Positions 55,274 to 61,435 of a stretch of 64,000 nt of DNA are shown piece by piece. The number at the start of each line of letters is the position of its first letter. Position 1 is the stretch's first letter. The stretch is from Polaribacter sp. MED152 (lineage in GTDB: Bacteria; Bacteroidota; Bacteroidia; Flavobacteriales; Flavobacteriaceae), in assembly GCF_000152945.2 (NCBI RefSeq), contig NC_020830.1, positions 1,312,501 through 1,376,500 on the forward strand, read 5' to 3'. Under the pieces are notes generated by a model. The model ran no database searches. It was not told the origin of the DNA and saw nothing but the letters and a program-made list of their open reading frames with translations. The position numbers and the translations under genes were made by a program.

Positions 55274-55729
55274 TTAGAAATCTCTGCTGTTAGAATCAAT
55301 GATTATAGTAACAGGCCCATCATTTAGCAAACGGACTTTCATGTCTGCGCCAAACACACCCGTTTGTACTTTTTTGGAAATCTCTTTCTCTAAATTTGCT
55401 ACAAATTTTTCATAAAGTGGTACTGCAATTTCTGGTTTAGAAGCTTTAATATAACTAGGTCTATTGCCTTTTTTTGTATTGGCATACAAAGTAAATTGAC
55501 TAACAACAATAACCTCTGCATTGATGTCTTTAAGCGATAAATTCATGACTTGATTTTCATCGTTAAAGATTCTTAAGTTAGCTGTTTTTCTTACTAAATA
55601 CTCAATATCTTCTATGGTATCGTCATCTGTAATACCCAAAAGAATAAGTAAGCCTTTTTCAATTTCTGCTACCTTATTTTGATTGATGGTAACACTTGCC
55701 TGAGAAACTCTTTGAACGACTACTCTCAT
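55274..55729 (-). CDS. dtd: D-aminoacyl-tRNA deacylase
   Basis: Hydrolyses D-amino acids (and glycine from tRNA-Ala) off mischarged tRNAs. The 151 residues start MRVVVQRVSQASVTI and contain VVSQFTLYANTKKGNRPSY (active-site SQxTL) and LLNDGPVTIIID (the cross-subunit Gly-cisPro motif). Length is normal for the family (E. coli 145). It starts 5 bp after the rsgA stop on the same strand, so it is co-transcribed with rsgA, a common flavobacterial pair. Confidence 0.96.
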   Translation of the reverse strand: MRVVVQRVSQASVTINQNKVAEIEKGLLILLGITDDDTIEDIEYLVRKTANLRIFNDENQVMNLSLKDINAEVIVVSQFTLYANTKKGNRPSYIKASKPEIAVPLYEKFVANLEKEISKKVQTGVFGADMKVRLLNDGPVTIIIDSNSRDF

Positions 55730-55734
55730 AGCAC

Positions 55735-56697
55735 CTAATCATCTTCTTCGTTCCAAACATCCGTTCTAAAATGTTCTGTTTCTTCTTCTCCTTCTAAAAT
55801 TTGCAAATAACTTCTGTACCTAGACCAAGAAATTTCTTCTTCTTCTAAGGCTTCTTTTACAGCACAATGTGGTTCTTTTAAATGAAGGCAATCATTAAAT
55901 TTACAATATTGCTTTAGCGCAAAAAATTCTGGAAAGTAATCTCCAAGTTCATACTTATCCATATCAACAACGCCAAAACCTTTAATACCAGGTGTATCTA
56001 TTATTTTTGCATCGAAACTTAAATCGAACATTTCTGCAAAAGTTGTAGTATGTTGCCCTTGTTTATGCTGATCTGAAATTTCTTGAGTTTTTAGATCTAA
56101 ATTAGGCTCTATTGCATTTACTAAAGTTGATTTACCTACTCCTGAATGGCCAACAAACATCGAGGTTTTACCTACCATTAAATCTTTTAATACATCAACA
56201 TTTATATTTTCTGTTGCAGAAACTTCTAAACAAGTATAACCTATGGCTTCATATATATCTTTAAGATATAGTATTTCTGCCCGTTCTTCAATTTCGTAAG
56301 AATCAATCTTATTAAAAATTAAAACCGTTTCAATTCTATAAGCTCTTGTAGTTACTAAGAAACGATCTATAAATGCGGTTAAAGTTGGTGGATTATTAAT
56401 AGTGATCAGTAAAAAAACCAAATCAATATTTGCAGCAATGATATGAGTTTGCTTGGATAGATTTACAGATTTACGAACAATAAAATTTTCTCTATCTAAA
56501 ATTTTCTTTATGACTCCTATTTCTTCATCACCCTTCTTTTCAAGGTCAAAAACTACTTTATCTCCAACAGCAATTGGATTAGTACTCTTTATACCTTTAA
56601 TTCTAAATTTACCTTTAATTCTACATTGATGAAATTGGCAATCATCAGACTTTACAAAATACCAACTTCCTGTAGATTTATATACAATACCTGTCAT
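55735..56697 (-). CDS. rsgA: ribosome small-subunit GTPase RsgA
   Basis: Late 30S assembly factor. The 320 residues show an OB fold (about 1-80), then a circularly permuted GTPase: G4 (IFNKID) comes before G1 (GHSGVGKSTLVNAIEP) and G3 (IIDTPGIKGFG). The C-terminal zinc knuckle follows (CKFNDCLHLKEPHCAVKEAL). The permuted order is diagnostic. A -7-like CATCTTTG (complement of 56703-56710) lies 5 bp before the ATG, separate from the upstream aromatic operon, which ends in its own terminator. Confidence 0.97.
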   Translation of the reverse strand: MTGIVYKSTGSWYFVKSDDCQFHQCRIKGKFRIKGIKSTNPIAVGDKVVFDLEKKGDEEIGVIKKILDRENFIVRKSVNLSKQTHIIAANIDLVFLLITINNPPTLTAFIDRFLVTTRAYRIETVLIFNKIDSYEIEERAEILYLKDIYEAIGYTCLEVSATENINVDVLKDLMVGKTSMFVGHSGVGKSTLVNAIEPNLDLKTQEISDQHKQGQHTTTFAEMFDLSFDAKIIDTPGIKGFGVVDMDKYELGDYFPEFFALKQYCKFNDCLHLKEPHCAVKEALEEEEISWSRYRSYLQILEGEEETEHFRTDVWNEEDD

Positions 56698-56788: not shown

Positions 56789-57871
56789 TTATCCTTTGAT
56801 AATACTTTCTTGATGATTGATCGATTCTTGATGAATTGCTTTAAACATTCTTAAAACAAACTCTTCACTTAATCCTTTTTCTTGACCTTCTAAAATCATG
56901 TTCCCTAAAATCTCATTCCATCTTCTAGATTGTAAAACAGCCACATTTTGCTCTTTCTTTAACTCACCAATTTGATCTGCAACTTTCATACGTTTACCTA
57001 ACAAATCTATTAATTGACCATCTACCACATTAATTTGAGCACGCAAATTTTCTAATGAATCTCTGTACGTAGAATCTGTTTCTGTTTGCTTTCTAATTTT
57101 TAGATCTTGCATAATCTGCTTTAATTTAGTTGGTGTTACTTGTTGTGCAGCATCTGACCAAGCATTTTCTGGATCCCAGTGTGTTTCTATCATTAAACCG
57201 TCAAAATTTAAATCTAAAGCAGTTTGAGATACGTCAAAAATCATTTCTCTGTTCCCTGTAATATGAGAAGGATCGCAAATTAATGGTAAATCTGGAAATC
57301 TATTTTTAAATTCAATTGCTATTTGCCATTCAGGAACATTTCTATATTTAGATTTTTCATATGTAGAAAAACCTCTATGAATTGCACCTAAATTTTTAAT
57401 ATCTGCAGTGTATAATCTTTCAATTCCACCTAACCATAAAGCTAAGTCTGGGTTAATTGGGTTTTTTACCAAAACAATTTTATCAGTTCCATGTAAAGCA
57501 TCTGCTAGTTCTTGCATGATAAAAGGAGAAACTGCTGTTCTTGCACCAATCCATAATAAATCTACATCATTCTCTAAAGCCAACTTAACATGAGCTGCAT
57601 TTGCAACTTCTGTACAGGTTTTCATACCTGTTTCCTCTTTTACTTTCTTTAACCATTTTAAACCTAAAGCTCCTACTCCTTCAAAATTTCCTGGTCTAGT
57701 TCTTGGTTTCCAAATTCCTGCTCTATAATAGTTTACATCAGAATCTTTTAATTCATGTGCAATTTTTAAAACTTGTTCTTCAGTTTCTGCACTACAAGGC
57801 CCTGCTATTACTAGTGGATGATCTAACTTCATATCATCCAACCATGTTCTTAATGCTGCTGTATTCTTCAT
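56789..57871 (-). CDS. bifunctional 3-deoxy-7-phosphoheptulonate synthase / chorismate mutase
   Basis: First shikimate-pathway enzyme fused to chorismate mutase. The N-terminal DAHP synthase (about 1-255) has PLVIAGPCSAETEEQ, YYRAGIWKPRTRPGNFEGVG, LVKNPINPDLALWLGG and LICDPSHITGN. The C-terminal type II chorismate mutase (about 270-360) has NLRAQINVVDGQLIDLLGKR and VAVLQSRRWNE. This order (mutase at the C-terminus) is typical of Bacteroidota. It is the last gene of the attenuated operon, 21 bp after tyrA, so both entry into the pathway and the branch to Phe/Tyr are controlled together. Confidence 0.96.
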   Translation of the reverse strand: MKNTAALRTWLDDMKLDHPLVIAGPCSAETEEQVLKIAHELKDSDVNYYRAGIWKPRTRPGNFEGVGALGLKWLKKVKEETGMKTCTEVANAAHVKLALENDVDLLWIGARTAVSPFIMQELADALHGTDKIVLVKNPINPDLALWLGGIERLYTADIKNLGAIHRGFSTYEKSKYRNVPEWQIAIEFKNRFPDLPLICDPSHITGNREMIFDVSQTALDLNFDGLMIETHWDPENAWSDAAQQVTPTKLKQIMQDLKIRKQTETDSTYRDSLENLRAQINVVDGQLIDLLGKRMKVADQIGELKKEQNVAVLQSRRWNEILGNMILEGQEKGLSEEFVLRMFKAIHQESINHQESIIKG

Positions 57872-57892: not shown

Positions 57893-58744
57893 TTATTTTA
57901 TGCCGTTTAAAATTTGTTTTATATAATTTGTATTCTCCATTTCGTTAAAAATTTCAGAGAAATTATCTTGTTGCATCAACTCTTTAAACTGTTGTAAATT
58001 GTTAATGTATTCTTCTAACGTTTCGATTACGTTATCTTTATTTTGCCTAAAAATTGGTGTCCACATTGCTGGGCTACTTTTTGCCAAACGTACTGTAGAC
58101 TCGAAACCTGAACCTGCCATATCAAAAATATCGCGTTCGTTTTTTTCTTTATTGATTACTGTTTTACCTAACATAAATGCGCTTATGTGAGATAGGTGCG
58201 AAACATACGCAATATGCTTATCATGAGAACCTGGGTCCATGTAGCGAATACGCATTCCAATTGCTCTAAAAAGTTCTAAAGCTTTCTCTTGAAGTTTAAA
58301 AGTTGTTTTTTCTACTTCACAGATTATGTTAGTTTTCCCTTTATATAAGCCAGATATTGCTGCTTTTGGTCCTGAATTCTCTGTACCAGCAATTGGATGA
58401 GCTGCTAAAAAATTTCTTCTTTTTTGATGATGTTCAACTTCTTTACAAATTGCTTCTTTTGTAGAACCTGCATCAACAACTAAAGTATTATCGCCTATTT
58501 TATCTAAAATTGTTGGTAATAATTTTACTGTAGCATCTACAGGAATGGCTACAATTACTAAATCTGCATTTTCTAAATCGTCTAAAGTAGCTTTTCTATC
58601 AATTACACCTAAAGCCAAAGATTCATCTAAATACCCTTCATTAGTATCTATACCATAAATTATGGCAGTAGGATTTTCCTTTCTTATATCAATAGCAAAA
58701 CTACCACCAATTAAACCAACACCAATAATATAAATAGCATTCAT
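57893..58744 (-). CDS. tyrA: prephenate dehydrogenase
   Basis: Oxidative decarboxylation of prephenate to 4-hydroxyphenylpyruvate, the tyrosine branch. The 283 residues carry a Rossmann NAD site (IIGVGLIGGSFAIDIRK), DAGSTKEAICKEVE, the FLAAHPIAGTENSGP catalytic histidine region and YVSHLSHISAFMLGKTV. No ACT domain, so feedback control must lie elsewhere (the leader and possibly the DAHP synthase). It sits 3 bp from the aminotransferase gene upstream. Confidence 0.95.
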   Translation of the reverse strand: MNAIYIIGVGLIGGSFAIDIRKENPTAIIYGIDTNEGYLDESLALGVIDRKATLDDLENADLVIVAIPVDATVKLLPTILDKIGDNTLVVDAGSTKEAICKEVEHHQKRRNFLAAHPIAGTENSGPKAAISGLYKGKTNIICEVEKTTFKLQEKALELFRAIGMRIRYMDPGSHDKHIAYVSHLSHISAFMLGKTVINKEKNERDIFDMAGSGFESTVRLAKSSPAMWTPIFRQNKDNVIETLEEYINNLQQFKELMQQDNFSEIFNEMENTNYIKQILNGIK

Positions 58745-58747
58745 AAT

Positions 58748-59890
58748 TTAAAATCTTGATATTGCTTCTTTAATAATTTCTTCTGTTACACATAAAGAAA
58801 AACGAATGTAACCCTCTCCTTGTGAACCAAAAATAGTACCTGGTGTTATAAATATATCTTTATCATATAACACTGAATCTGTCACCTCTTCTGATTTTTT
58901 TCCTTTAGGAATTTTAGCCCAAACAAATAAGCCTGTTGCATTTTTGTGGTATTTGGCATCTAACTTATCTGCCAATTGCCAAACTAATTTCCTGCGCTTT
59001 TCGTAAATTTTATTCTGGTCTTGAAACCATTTATCTGATAACTGCAATGCTTTAATTGCACCTTTCTGAATGCCATAAAACATTCCAGAATCCATGTTAG
59101 ATTTCACCTTTAAAACCTCATTAATAAAACTAGAATTTCCAAGCAACATACCTACTCTCCAACCAGCCATATTAAATGTTTTGCTTAAAGAATTTAACTC
59201 TAGGGCTACCTCTTTAGCTCCTTCTACTTGTAGTATACTTATAGGTTTATCATTTAAAATAAAACTGTAAGGATTATCATTAATGATTAAAATATCATGT
59301 TTTTTACCAAAGGAAACTAATTTTTCAAAAGTTGCTAATGTAGCATTTGTGCCTGTTGGCATATGAGGATAATTTACCCACATTAATTTCACATCGCTTA
59401 AATCTAATTGCTCCAAAACTTCAAAGTTAGGTTGCCAATTAGTTTCTTCTGACAAATCATAAAATAAAGGATTTGCACCTACTAATTTTGTAACAGAAGT
59501 ATAGGTTGGATAACCAGGATTTGGAATTAAAACTTTATCACCTTCATTCAAAAAGGCCATAGATATATGCATGATTCCTTCCTTGCTTCCCATTAAGGGT
59601 AAAACTTCATTGTCAGGATTTAATATCACTGAAAATTTATTATTGTAAAACCCAGAGATTGCACTACGTAATTCTGGTAACCCTTGATATGATTGATATT
59701 TATGCGCACTTGCATCAGTCAAACTACTAGAAATAGCATCTAAGACACTTGCTGGTGGTTGCAAATCTGGAGAACCAATACCCATATTTATAATTGGCTT
59801 ACCTGCAGCAGCTAAACCTCTTACCTCTCTTAATTTTTTAGAGAAATAATATTCTTGAACAGTATCTAATCTTTTTGCGGGTTGTATCAT
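58748..59890 (-). CDS. class I/II aminotransferase (probable aromatic/aspartate type)
   Basis: 380 residues, fold-type I PLP enzyme. Visible are GIGSPDLQPPASV, the substrate Asn region NYPHMPTGTNATL, ILIINDNPYSFIL and the PLP lysine in ELNSLSKTFNMAGWRVGML. Lying between pheA and tyrA, it most likely transaminates phenylpyruvate and 4-hydroxyphenylpyruvate to Phe and Tyr (or prephenate to arogenate); the exact substrate is inferred from context. Its ATG overlaps the pheA stop by 4 bp, indicating translational coupling. Confidence 0.92.
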   Translation of the reverse strand: MIQPAKRLDTVQEYYFSKKLREVRGLAAAGKPIINMGIGSPDLQPPASVLDAISSSLTDASAHKYQSYQGLPELRSAISGFYNNKFSVILNPDNEVLPLMGSKEGIMHISMAFLNEGDKVLIPNPGYPTYTSVTKLVGANPLFYDLSEETNWQPNFEVLEQLDLSDVKLMWVNYPHMPTGTNATLATFEKLVSFGKKHDILIINDNPYSFILNDKPISILQVEGAKEVALELNSLSKTFNMAGWRVGMLLGNSSFINEVLKVKSNMDSGMFYGIQKGAIKALQLSDKWFQDQNKIYEKRRKLVWQLADKLDAKYHKNATGLFVWAKIPKGKKSEEVTDSVLYDKDIFITPGTIFGSQGEGYIRFSLCVTEEIIKEAISRF

Positions 59891-60711
59891 CTTCTACCAT
59901 TTTTATACGTTCCTAAAACCTTAAATTCTTCAGCCATAATTTCTAAAATTGATGCTGCTTTTTTGTATTCTTTATAATCATCAAAAGTAATATCAACAAA
60001 GAAAGAATATTTCCAAGGTGTTTCTATAACTGGTAATGATTGTATTTTGGTTAGATTCATTTTGCAATCGCTTAACACATTTAAAATAGCAGCTAAGCTT
60101 CCTCTTTTATGATCTAATTGAAACTTTAAGGATGCTTTATTTACATTTTCATTTAGTGCTGGCTTACTTGTTTGTACAATTACAAAACGTGTTGAGTTGT
60201 CTTTAATCGTTTGAATTTCATCTTCAAGAATTTCTAAATCAAATATTTCTGCAGCTATTTTAGGAGCAATTGCAGCTATACCTTTTAAATTTTTCTGCGA
60301 AATTCTTTTTGCAACTTCTGCAGTATCCACATCTTCAACTAATTTGATATTTGGATATTTTTTAAAAAACTCTTTACACTGCAATAATGCCATTGGATGA
60401 GACCAAACCTCATTAATATCTTCTAAAGTTTGATTTTTTAAAGCCATTAAATGATGATGAATATTTAAATATTCTTCATCTATAATGTGCAAGTTGCTAT
60501 TATCTATAAGTGCATAATTAGGTATTATAGAGCCTGCAATTGTGTTTTCTAAAGCCATAACCCCAACATCCGCAGAATTATTTAACAAACTATCTACTAA
60601 AACATCAAAAGACATGCATTCTGCTAACTGAATTTCTTTACCATAGAAATCAATAGCTACTTTATGATGATTTGAGCCTTCTGCACCTTGTATTGCGATT
60701 ATTTTTTTCAA
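59887..60711 (-). CDS. pheA: prephenate dehydratase with ACT domain, TTG start
   Basis: Converts prephenate to phenylpyruvate. The 274 residues show IAIQGAEGSNHHKVAIDFYG, MALENTIAGSIIPNY, the catalytic TRF motif in DNSTRFVIVQTSK and a C-terminal ACT domain (about 190-270; GSLAAILNVLSDCKMNLTKI). The usual ESRP phenylalanine-binding motif reads QSLP here (KIQSLPVIETP). The start codon is TTG (60709-60711): the frame offers no better start, and the first residues MKKIIAIQG fit. Unlike E. coli PheA there is no fused chorismate mutase; that activity is on the DAHP synthase. First gene of the operon behind the leader attenuator. Confidence 0.94.
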   Translation of the reverse strand: MKKIIAIQGAEGSNHHKVAIDFYGKEIQLAECMSFDVLVDSLLNNSADVGVMALENTIAGSIIPNYALIDNSNLHIIDEEYLNIHHHLMALKNQTLEDINEVWSHPMALLQCKEFFKKYPNIKLVEDVDTAEVAKRISQKNLKGIAAIAPKIAAEIFDLEILEDEIQTIKDNSTRFVIVQTSKPALNENVNKASLKFQLDHKRGSLAAILNVLSDCKMNLTKIQSLPVIETPWKYSFFVDITFDDYKEYKKAASILEIMAEEFKVLGTYKNGRR

Positions 60712-60725
60712 CGTAATATAATATC

Positions 60726-60758
60726 AAAAAAAAAGCCTCGAATTTAATTCGAGACTTT
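60726..60758 (-). terminator. leader terminator (attenuator) upstream of pheA
   Basis: On the minus strand GTCTCGAATT pairs with AATTCGAGGC (60746-60755 with 60735-60744, one G-U), followed by nine T (60726-60734). It lies after the leader-peptide stop codon and 14 bp before the pheA start, so it must be read through to express the operon. Its 5' arm overlaps the segment 60751-60758, which can pair instead with 60792-60799 (antiterminator). Confidence 0.85.
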
Positions 60759-60776
60759 ATATTTATTGTTTTGTGT

Positions 60777-60857
60777 TTAACAAAATGATACAAAGTCTCT
60801 CCTTTTATTGTAAAAATAAAAGTAAAAATAGAAACGAGTCCAAGTTGTTTTTAACAT
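60777..60857 (-). CDS. Phe/Tyr operon leader peptide (26 aa)
   Basis: Short ORF, ATG 60857 to TAA 60777-60779, just downstream of a consensus promoter. Residues 9-16 are FYFYFYFY, preceded by MLKTTWTR, with two more Phe near the end: 6 Phe and 4 Tyr of 26 residues. This is the pattern of attenuation leader peptides such as E. coli PheL. Codons 20-22 (AGA GAC TTT) contain GAGACTTT, which pairs with AAAGTCTC of the terminator. A ribosome stalled on the Phe-Tyr codons would leave this free and prevent termination; one reaching the stop would mask it. No homologue is recalled in Bacteroidota. Confidence 0.85.
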   Translation of the reverse strand: MLKTTWTRFYFYFYFYNKRRDFVSFC

Positions 60858-60877
60858 TTTTTCTTGTGTTTAAAAGA

Positions 60878-60907
60878 CAAATCTAAAGATTAAATTCAGA
60901 TACACAA
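60878..60907 (-). promoter_or_regulatory. promoter of the Phe/Tyr operon
   Basis: On the minus strand TTG (60905-60907), exactly 19 nt, TAGATTTG (60878-60885), a full match to the Bacteroidota consensus. The predicted start lies roughly 14 nt before the leader-peptide ATG and about 160 nt before pheA, leaving room for the attenuator. Confidence 0.82.
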
Positions 60908-61027
60908 ATATTATTAAAAGAATTCCATAATTTTTATCAATAATTCAAAATTGATTAAAAATATTATCTGATTGTCAATTAACATCCTTTTAATATCAAT
61001 TTCATTCATTGATTTCTAAGACTTGAA

Positions 61028-61435
61028 ATGATTATCTTTAAGGTTTATAAAACTTATATTTTGGATTTAAACGTTTTGAACCAACCTCTGCAATGTTGTT
61101 GCACCTCTCCTTTGACGGGTTTTTATAGAGATGGTTTTTGTAAAACAGGTGTACAAGATTATGGAACGCACACAGTTTGTGCAATTGTAACAGATGATTT
61201 TTTGGAGTATTCTCTGAGCAGAGGAAATGATTTGATAACACCCATACCTCAATGGAATTTTCCTGGTTTAAAACCTGGCGATCACTGGTGCCTTTGTATT
61301 TCCAGATGGCTACAAGCTGAGAAAGTAGGTAAAGCTCCTTTTATTAAGCTCGAAGCAACTCATATTAAATCTTTAGATTATTGCTCTTTAGATCTTTTAA
61401 AAAAGTATGAATTTCAGAAAAAAGACCAAGAATGA
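61028..61435 (+). CDS. DUF2237 family protein
   Basis: 135 residues. The conserved DUF2237 core is clear: LNVLNQPLQCCCTSPLTGFY, DGFCKTGVQDYGTHTVCAIV, TDDFLEYSLSRGNDLITP and FPGLKPGDHWCLCISRWLQA, then KLEATHIKSLDYCSLDLLKK. The family is found across bacteria, archaea and eukaryotes and has several conserved cysteines; function unknown. The first 13 residues lie outside the conserved core, so a later start (for example TTG near residue 14) is possible. The stop overlaps the next gene by 4 bp (ATGA), so the two are coupled. Confidence 0.88.
   Translation: MIIFKVYKTYILDLNVLNQPLQCCCTSPLTGFYRDGFCKTGVQDYGTHTVCAIVTDDFLEYSLSRGNDLITPIPQWNFPGLKPGDHWCLCISRWLQAEKVGKAPFIKLEATHIKSLDYCSLDLLKKYEFQKKDQE

Follow-up and report, generated by a model that had tools for sequence, protein, structure and literature searches.

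The leader of Escherichia coli pheA reads Phe only; its Phe codons lie in a short ORF before pheA, and an antiterminator is set against a terminator. In the E. coli trp leader, hairpin 1:2 competes with the antiterminator. A single leader may also read more than one amino acid, as those of E. coli ilvGMEDA and thrABC do through branched-chain or Thr/Ile codons. Beyond Proteobacteria and Actinobacteria the authors of PMC2965389 knew of no leader-peptide system, and they report one in Firmicutes; the word Bacteroidetes is absent from the part of that paper available to us. The attenuation principle is nevertheless already known in Bacteroidota. The peptide-leader RNA Bacteroid-trp (Rfam RF01692) is among the RNAs listed in the accessible text of PMC2864571, and the corresponding text of PMC7366714 mentions Bacteroides short ORFs reminiscent of leader peptides. 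Close to the present case, PMC9723704 (2021; main text) describes in F. psychrophilum structured 5' elements before pheA and hisG, found in other Flavobacteriaceae genera and without Rfam match, and sees strong hints of attenuation by leader peptides upstream of amino-acid operons. This main text does not contain the words phenylalanine or tyrosine, and its section on the elements gives neither leader sequence nor pairing, which the supplement may hold.

The DNA analysed here is a window of 64,000 nucleotides from Polaribacter sp. MED152 (contig NC_020830.1). An earlier note, made from its sequence, had proposed a Phe/Tyr attenuator upstream of pheA and regarded ribosome-mediated attenuation as classically a proteobacterial theme. 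It is not foreign to Bacteroidota, however, as Bacteroid-trp matches the trpE leader of the same genome and, as far as the main text of PMC9723704 goes, a conserved element precedes the same gene, pheA, in the same family. Among the literature matches listed, we recognised no description of a Phe/Tyr leader in Bacteroidota; as the supplement of PMC9723704 and the attenuation survey of Lopatovskaya 2010 may already cover such leaders, we claim no priority.

We consider it highly probable that the region upstream of pheA (60,726-60,908, minus strand; Table 1) is a ribosome-mediated transcription attenuator of an operon encoding PheA, an aminotransferase, TyrA and a DAHP synthase-chorismate mutase. 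The sequence combines a short ORF whose predicted translation is rich in Phe and Tyr, an intrinsic terminator and an antiterminator that excludes it. The reading rests on conservation of leader and terminator, covariation among segments 2, 3 and 4, placement before pheA, and an operon that makes Phe and Tyr. It also fits the leaders that the same genome carries before two other genes, one rich in Trp at trpE and one rich in His at hisG.

Table 1. Features of the pheA leader region and downstream operon of Polaribacter sp. MED152 (positions in the window).
Feature	Position	Strand	Basis
-33-like TTTG, Bacteroidota-type promoter	60905..60908	minus	sequence reading
-7-like box TAGATTTG (consensus TAnnTTTG)	60878..60885	minus	19-nt spacer from -33 element
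Leader ORF, 26 codons, MLKTTWTRFYFYFYFYNKRRDFVSFC, 6 Phe and 4 Tyr	60777..60857	minus	ORF list
Trp codon TGG, three codons 5' of the Phe/Tyr run	60840..60842	minus	
Control codons FYFYFYFY (TTC TAT TTT TAC TTT TAT TTT TAC)	60810..60833	minus	sequence reading
Control-codon hairpin CTTTTATT-TTTAC-AATAAAAG (60822-60815 with 60809-60802)	60802..60822	minus	predicted fold
Segment 2, GAGACUUUGUAU, antiterminator 5' arm, within leader ORF	60788..60799	minus	pairing and conservation
Segment 3, AUAUAAAGUCUC, antiterminator 3' arm, overlaps terminator 5' arm	60751..60762	minus	pairing and covariation
Terminator hairpin AAAGTCTCGAAT-TAA-ATTCGAGGCTTT, 12 pairs	60732..60758	minus	-12.8 kcal/mol; family covariation
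Terminator U-tract, nine U, of which the first three also pair in the stem	60726..60734	minus	sequence reading
pheA, prephenate dehydratase, TTG start	59887..60711	minus	PF00800 181.6 bits (cut-off 25.2)
Class I/II aminotransferase	58748..59890	minus	PF00155 196 bits (cut-off 19.7)
tyrA, prephenate dehydrogenase	57893..58744	minus	NF006307 393.8 bits (cut-off 295); PF02153 and PF20463
DAHP synthase-chorismate mutase fusion	56789..57871	minus	PF00793 and PF01817 over cut-off

Most of what the earlier note had read in this region is borne out. The promoter-like pair it described is present with TTTG, spacer and -7 box, as are the 26-codon ORF with its Phe-Tyr repeat and the terminator with nine U, whose tract stops 14 nt short of the TTG with which pheA begins at 60711. 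An 8-nt complementarity between 60792-60799 and 60751-60758 proves to be longer: segments 2 and 3 form 12 contiguous pairs counting G-U (60799-60788 with 60762-60751). Folded alone, the antiterminator region has a predicted energy of -15.4 kcal/mol vs -12.8 kcal/mol for the terminator region, and the predicted fold of the whole leader includes the antiterminator, so that read-through would be favoured without a ribosome. On the other side of the leader region from pheA lies a divergent DUF2237 gene (61028-61435), and a 16S rRNA gene on the minus strand, cut by the window edge, occupies positions 1-1217.

Transcription would begin shortly upstream of the leader ORF, which a ribosome would then start to translate. 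When charged Phe-tRNA or Tyr-tRNA is scarce, this ribosome would stall on FYFYFYFY, leaving segment 2, about 10 nt further on, free to pair with segment 3; no terminator would then form and the operon would be transcribed. When both charged tRNAs are plentiful, the ribosome would reach the stop codon and cover or disturb segment 2, whereupon segment 3 would pair with segment 4 and transcription would end at the U-tract. The control-codon hairpin may serve to pause RNA polymerase until the ribosome arrives.

The E. coli pheA attenuator is a close parallel, from which the MED152 leader differs in alternating Tyr with Phe, in having segment 2 inside the ORF and in the absence of a recognisable Shine-Dalgarno sequence before its ATG, as read from the sequence. 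The Rfam model of the E. coli type (Phe_leader, RF01859) reaches 22.8 bits on the MED152 leader, under its cut-off of 55. From ilvGMEDA and thrABC the leader differs by its alternating Phe and Tyr codons, and from Bacteroid-trp by its operon and codons; it matches neither RF01692 nor any Rfam T-box model. According to the accessible text of PMC9976891, ribosomes of this class fail to recognise Shine-Dalgarno sequences, and the TAnnTTTG promoter consensus is named in the main text of PMC9723704. With a -33/-7-like pattern that was widened after viewing the family sequences, 73 of the 126 Flavobacteriaceae leader loci described below have a pair of boxes in the 85 nt that precede the leader ATG, vs 11 of 2059 background windows; the strict TAnnTTTG box occurs within 80 nt of the leader in 19/126 family loci, with a background of 92/2015.

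The arrangement is well conserved. A near set of 110 loci, picked by likeness to MED152 PheA, was assembled from 30 loci of a genome search (own locus included) and the best 80 of 260 from GTDB contigs, some of them apparently representing the same genome twice. At each of the 110, pheA is preceded by an ORF in which a stretch of 9 residues contains 6 or more F/Y, by a terminator stem of 9 or more pairs without mismatch, and by a run of 7 or more U. A broader sample comprised 149 Flavobacteriaceae genomes, nearly one per genus, with pheA in 136 and absent from 13; upstream regions were read at 134 loci, two already collected being omitted. Under a fixed rule, which asks for 5 or more F/Y within 9 residues, a stem of 7 or more pairs in which one mismatch is allowed, and 6 or more U, leader and terminator precede pheA at 126 of these 134 loci. 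Phe/Tyr-rich short ORFs, which the earlier note had suggested looking for in relatives, are thus found in both sets. At three of the eight failing loci an F/Y leader is present without a terminator by the rule; the other five have no leader, and for one of these a contig end is 379 nt away. Both Phe and Tyr occur in every one of the 126 passing leaders, which fits the proposal that one leader reads both amino acids. As a control for chance, 4620 random 420-nt windows placed at any position, not only at gene starts, were submitted to the rule: 74 pass, all but 6 of which are true leaders by reading of the list. Judged from these sequences, the leader arrangement before pheA is not a chance one.

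A structured leader before an amino-acid operon could also be a riboswitch, a T-box or a protein-bound leader sensing Phe or Tyr directly. We hold this to be very improbable, because, in searches of five pheA leaders, that of MED152 included, all Rfam 15 models stay under their cut-offs, and because in an alignment of 88 of the 110 near loci (15 identical and 7 Algibacter-type sequences omitted) conservation sits in the F/Y codons, the hairpin made of them and segments 2, 3 and 4.

Support for an attenuator also comes from joint changes of the putative segments 2, 3 and 4. Each segment 2 pairs better with the segment 3 of its own locus than with that of another genus (mean score 11.1 vs 9.6), and 0 of 5000 permutations, which do not remove relatedness, reach the own value. 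When the 126 family sequences are aligned, the terminator has 98 cells with changes on both sides vs 17 in shuffles (0/500), both sides being changed in 9 of its 10 pairs across the family, and the antiterminator has 66 vs 26.4 (0/500), these figures counting cells rather than independent events and the shuffles leaving relatedness in place. Pairing types seen in the family include GAGAC/GUCUC, GGGAC/GUCCC, AGGAC/GUCCU and CCGGGUU/AACCCGG. For the antiterminator, the number of pairs with both-side changes (126/500) and that of pair types (150/500), two of the five measures, are not above shuffles, only 75.7% of its cells pair in the family alignment, and sliding the partner by -2 columns still gives 55 both-side changes vs 66 in register. 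Compensatory changes in the antiterminator, for which the earlier note had suggested looking, are present at family scale; the near set alone has little variation in segments 2 and 3 and gives no significant covariation. The small hairpin at the stop codon that it had also pointed out (60769-60774 with 60780-60785) exists in the window and, tested in one register, gains no support from covariation in relatives (5 cells vs 6.5 shuffled), and this point of the note is not upheld. Conservation, covariation and placement strongly support the core of its reading, namely a Phe/Tyr leader peptide with antiterminator set against terminator, a single leader serving an operon for both amino acids.

The spacing within the leader also fits. 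At the 114 of the 126 loci with segment 2 near the stop, the distance from the last aromatic codon to segment 2 has a median of 11 nt (5-95% range, 8 to 12), and the stop codon follows segment 2 by a median of 8 nt (-8 to 11). The stop overlaps segment 2 at 35 of the 108 near loci that have segment 2 close to the stop, and at 14 of these 114 family loci, and the GAGAC:GUCUC core pairs in 86 of the 88 aligned near sequences, whatever the stop. As the core is kept when the stop position differs, we conclude that selection acts on the RNA as well as on the peptide. Two near loci, L068 and L092, have the terminator arm AAAGCCTCGA and a segment 2 that keeps GAGAC, which gives one A-C mismatch in the antiterminator.

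These data also bear on the idea that the leader peptide acts only by translational coupling, ribosomes re-initiating at pheA and the terminator being incidental. Re-initiation after leader genes is proposed in the accessible text of PMC4833913, with a peak at 11-14 bp in Bacteroidetes. The 65 nt that separate the leader stop from pheA in MED152 lower our confidence in this alternative; in addition, the terminator, which lies in this gap, covaries and has a matching segment 2. Re-initiation alone thus appears most unlikely, and we retain the attenuator reading.

A part of the leader that the earlier note had left unmentioned, as it had the frequent Trp codon, is a hairpin built from the control codons themselves. 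In the window, it consists of Phe/Tyr codons and the purine-rich codons that follow them, and ends 2 nt 5' of segment 2. In 122 of the 126 family leaders, the control-codon stretch folds more stably than its synonymous recodings do (mean z -2.14). The effect persists when codon weights are taken from the leaders (mean z -1.56, 96% below zero) and when codons are permuted within each leader (mean z -1.12, 92% below zero); of three control windows placed in pheA, one gives a mean z of -0.86 (75% below zero) and the others give -0.27 and -0.15. Across the 88 aligned near sequences, hairpin pairs are kept in 98.4% of cells. One pair, formed between a Tyr codon at its third base and an Asn/Ser codon, is UA in 51 sequences, CG in 35 and of another type in one. 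Cells with changes on both sides number 36 vs 14.4 shuffled (0/500), and the pair-type count is not above shuffles (500/500). A PheA tree of 86 rows shows 14 changes on both sides and no mixed row, with only 3 independent pairs on supported branches. Over 112 loci, the median distance from the 3' end of the hairpin to segment 2 is 1 nt, so the hairpin would share no bases with segment 2.

This geometry leads us to suggest that the control-codon hairpin is a transcription-pause hairpin that keeps polymerase and ribosome in step, placed beside the antiterminator and not in competition with it, unlike hairpin 1:2 of the E. coli trp leader. We give this extension of the attenuator reading a little under an even chance. 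It is favoured by the stability relative to synonymous recodings, by the UA/CG exchange with its excess of both-side changes, by the position of the 3' end and by the leaders of another family of the class, f18, where the mean z is -2.17 with 26 of 30 below zero. Against it, YG pause-site dinucleotides do not occur at one fixed distance after the hairpin, their peaks being at +1 (65%, part of segment 2), +6 (32%), +9 (36%) and +13 (40%); the pair types do not exceed shuffles; only 3 of the 14 concerted changes are on supported branches; and one of the three pheA control windows is low as well. Our confidence is further reduced because, in RNA up to segment 2 (114 loci), segment 2 pairs with upstream RNA at 0.56 vs 0.47 with shuffled upstream RNA, which leaves room for a competing upstream structure. 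Whatever its role, the predicted hairpin of Phe/Tyr codons is a new part and the most informative addition to the attenuator model.

The operon downstream is that expected of an element reading Phe and Tyr, with assignments of varying strength. Of its four genes, only tyrA is confirmed over a curated NCBIfam cut-off. The best NCBIfam models for pheA (189.5 bits, cut-off 219) and for the DAHP synthase-chorismate mutase (186.6 bits, cut-off 279) stay under their cut-offs, and no NCBIfam model reaches its cut-off for the aminotransferase among the 25 shown of 69 found. The closest named relatives are from Polaribacter, own-genome records being perhaps left out of the matches listed. Two genes of the whole genome match PF00793, the operon DAHP synthase and a KDO8P synthase (NCBIfam over cut-off), and a whole-genome search with PF01474 gave no match; the operon therefore carries the only DAHP synthase recognised in the genome. 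After the aromatic genes and on the same minus strand come rsgA and a D-aminoacyl-tRNA deacylase gene (Pfam Tyr_Deacylase; 55274-56697), which may be co-transcribed with them.

With a single recognised DAHP synthase in the operon, one may ask whether the leader reads all three aromatic amino acids, Trp shortage also opening the operon. Trp occurs in 87 of the 126 family leaders, vs about 22% expected from the background W frequency (related sequences inflating the count), and in 78 of these 87 the next aromatic run lies one or three residues further on. It is found in only 51 of the 85 distinct near peptides and in just 4 of the 30 f18 leaders, however, and one Trp codon may stall a ribosome weakly. 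This further extension of the attenuator reading is possible, and we put it forward tentatively.

Samples beyond Flavobacteriaceae, read with only 5 U required in place of the 6-U condition for the f18 and class samples, show the leader to varying extents. The f18 sample contains the prephenate dehydratase gene in 30 of 40 genomes; all 30 loci (L323-L352) have an F/Y leader before it, 26 of them with a terminator by the rule. For these 26, 0 of 5000 permutations reach the own-partner pairing, and judged by pairing and codon stability the f18 leaders share the same kind of switch and hairpin. The class sample holds the gene in 17 of 60 genomes. Once the own and f18 genomes are omitted, 8 of 15 loci pass, one of which is a Flavobacteriaceae genome seen before, leaving 7 of 14 outside the family. 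Finally, the phylum sample has the gene in 337 of 392 genomes; among 40 listed matches outside Flavobacteriaceae, picked to spread over families, a leader was found in one, the f18 genome. The phylum-sample loci without such a leader include seven of family f5, which belongs to the same order, and three of family f22, another genome of which has one. Against the attenuator reading stand these leaderless loci (7/7 in f5, 39/40 among the phylum matches outside the family), the eight failing Flavobacteriaceae loci and the antiterminator results given above that do not exceed shuffles or lack significance in the near set.

Other amino-acid operons of the MED152 genome are also preceded by leaders. 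The trpE leader MKNSINISWWWNSLN is followed by a terminator (L285:1312-1426) and matches Bacteroid-trp at 65.8 bits (cut-off 49). The hisG leader MTFIQNHHHHFYNCSQAI likewise has a terminator (L289). Searching 33 Flavobacteriaceae genomes, 30 of which have hisG, with a rule of at least 3 His in 9 residues plus a terminator, we found a His leader at 29 of 30 loci, own included; neither L289 nor L295, the two hisG loci compared with Rfam, gives a match at the gathering threshold. At four PF00682 loci of the own genome (of five matches), no clear further amino-acid leader was seen. Together with the pheA leader, the Trp leader and the His leaders suggest that ribosome-mediated attenuation is a standard tool in Flavobacteriaceae.

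A wider generalisation is conceivable, which at present we would rather doubt than assert: a widespread attenuator of Bacteroidia, placed at the entry of aromatic synthesis, which reads Phe and Tyr and frequently, in the case of Flavobacteriaceae, Trp as well, with a pause hairpin of control codons beside the antiterminator and with ribosomes that do not recognise Shine-Dalgarno sequences. If this were true, polymerase and ribosome would run closely coupled in the class. PMC13323073, in its accessible text, names six phyla for runaway transcription, none of them Bacteroidota, a word that this text does not contain; such a silence is compatible with transcription-translation coupling and provides no evidence for it. 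As attenuators need a ribosome close behind the polymerase, the leaders described here would offer a direct test of such coupling in the class, and the control-codon hairpin makes a concrete, testable addition to the attenuator model. For Flavobacteriaceae and, on the samples examined, several other families of Bacteroidia, they represent a well-supported candidate element for the control of aromatic amino-acid synthesis.
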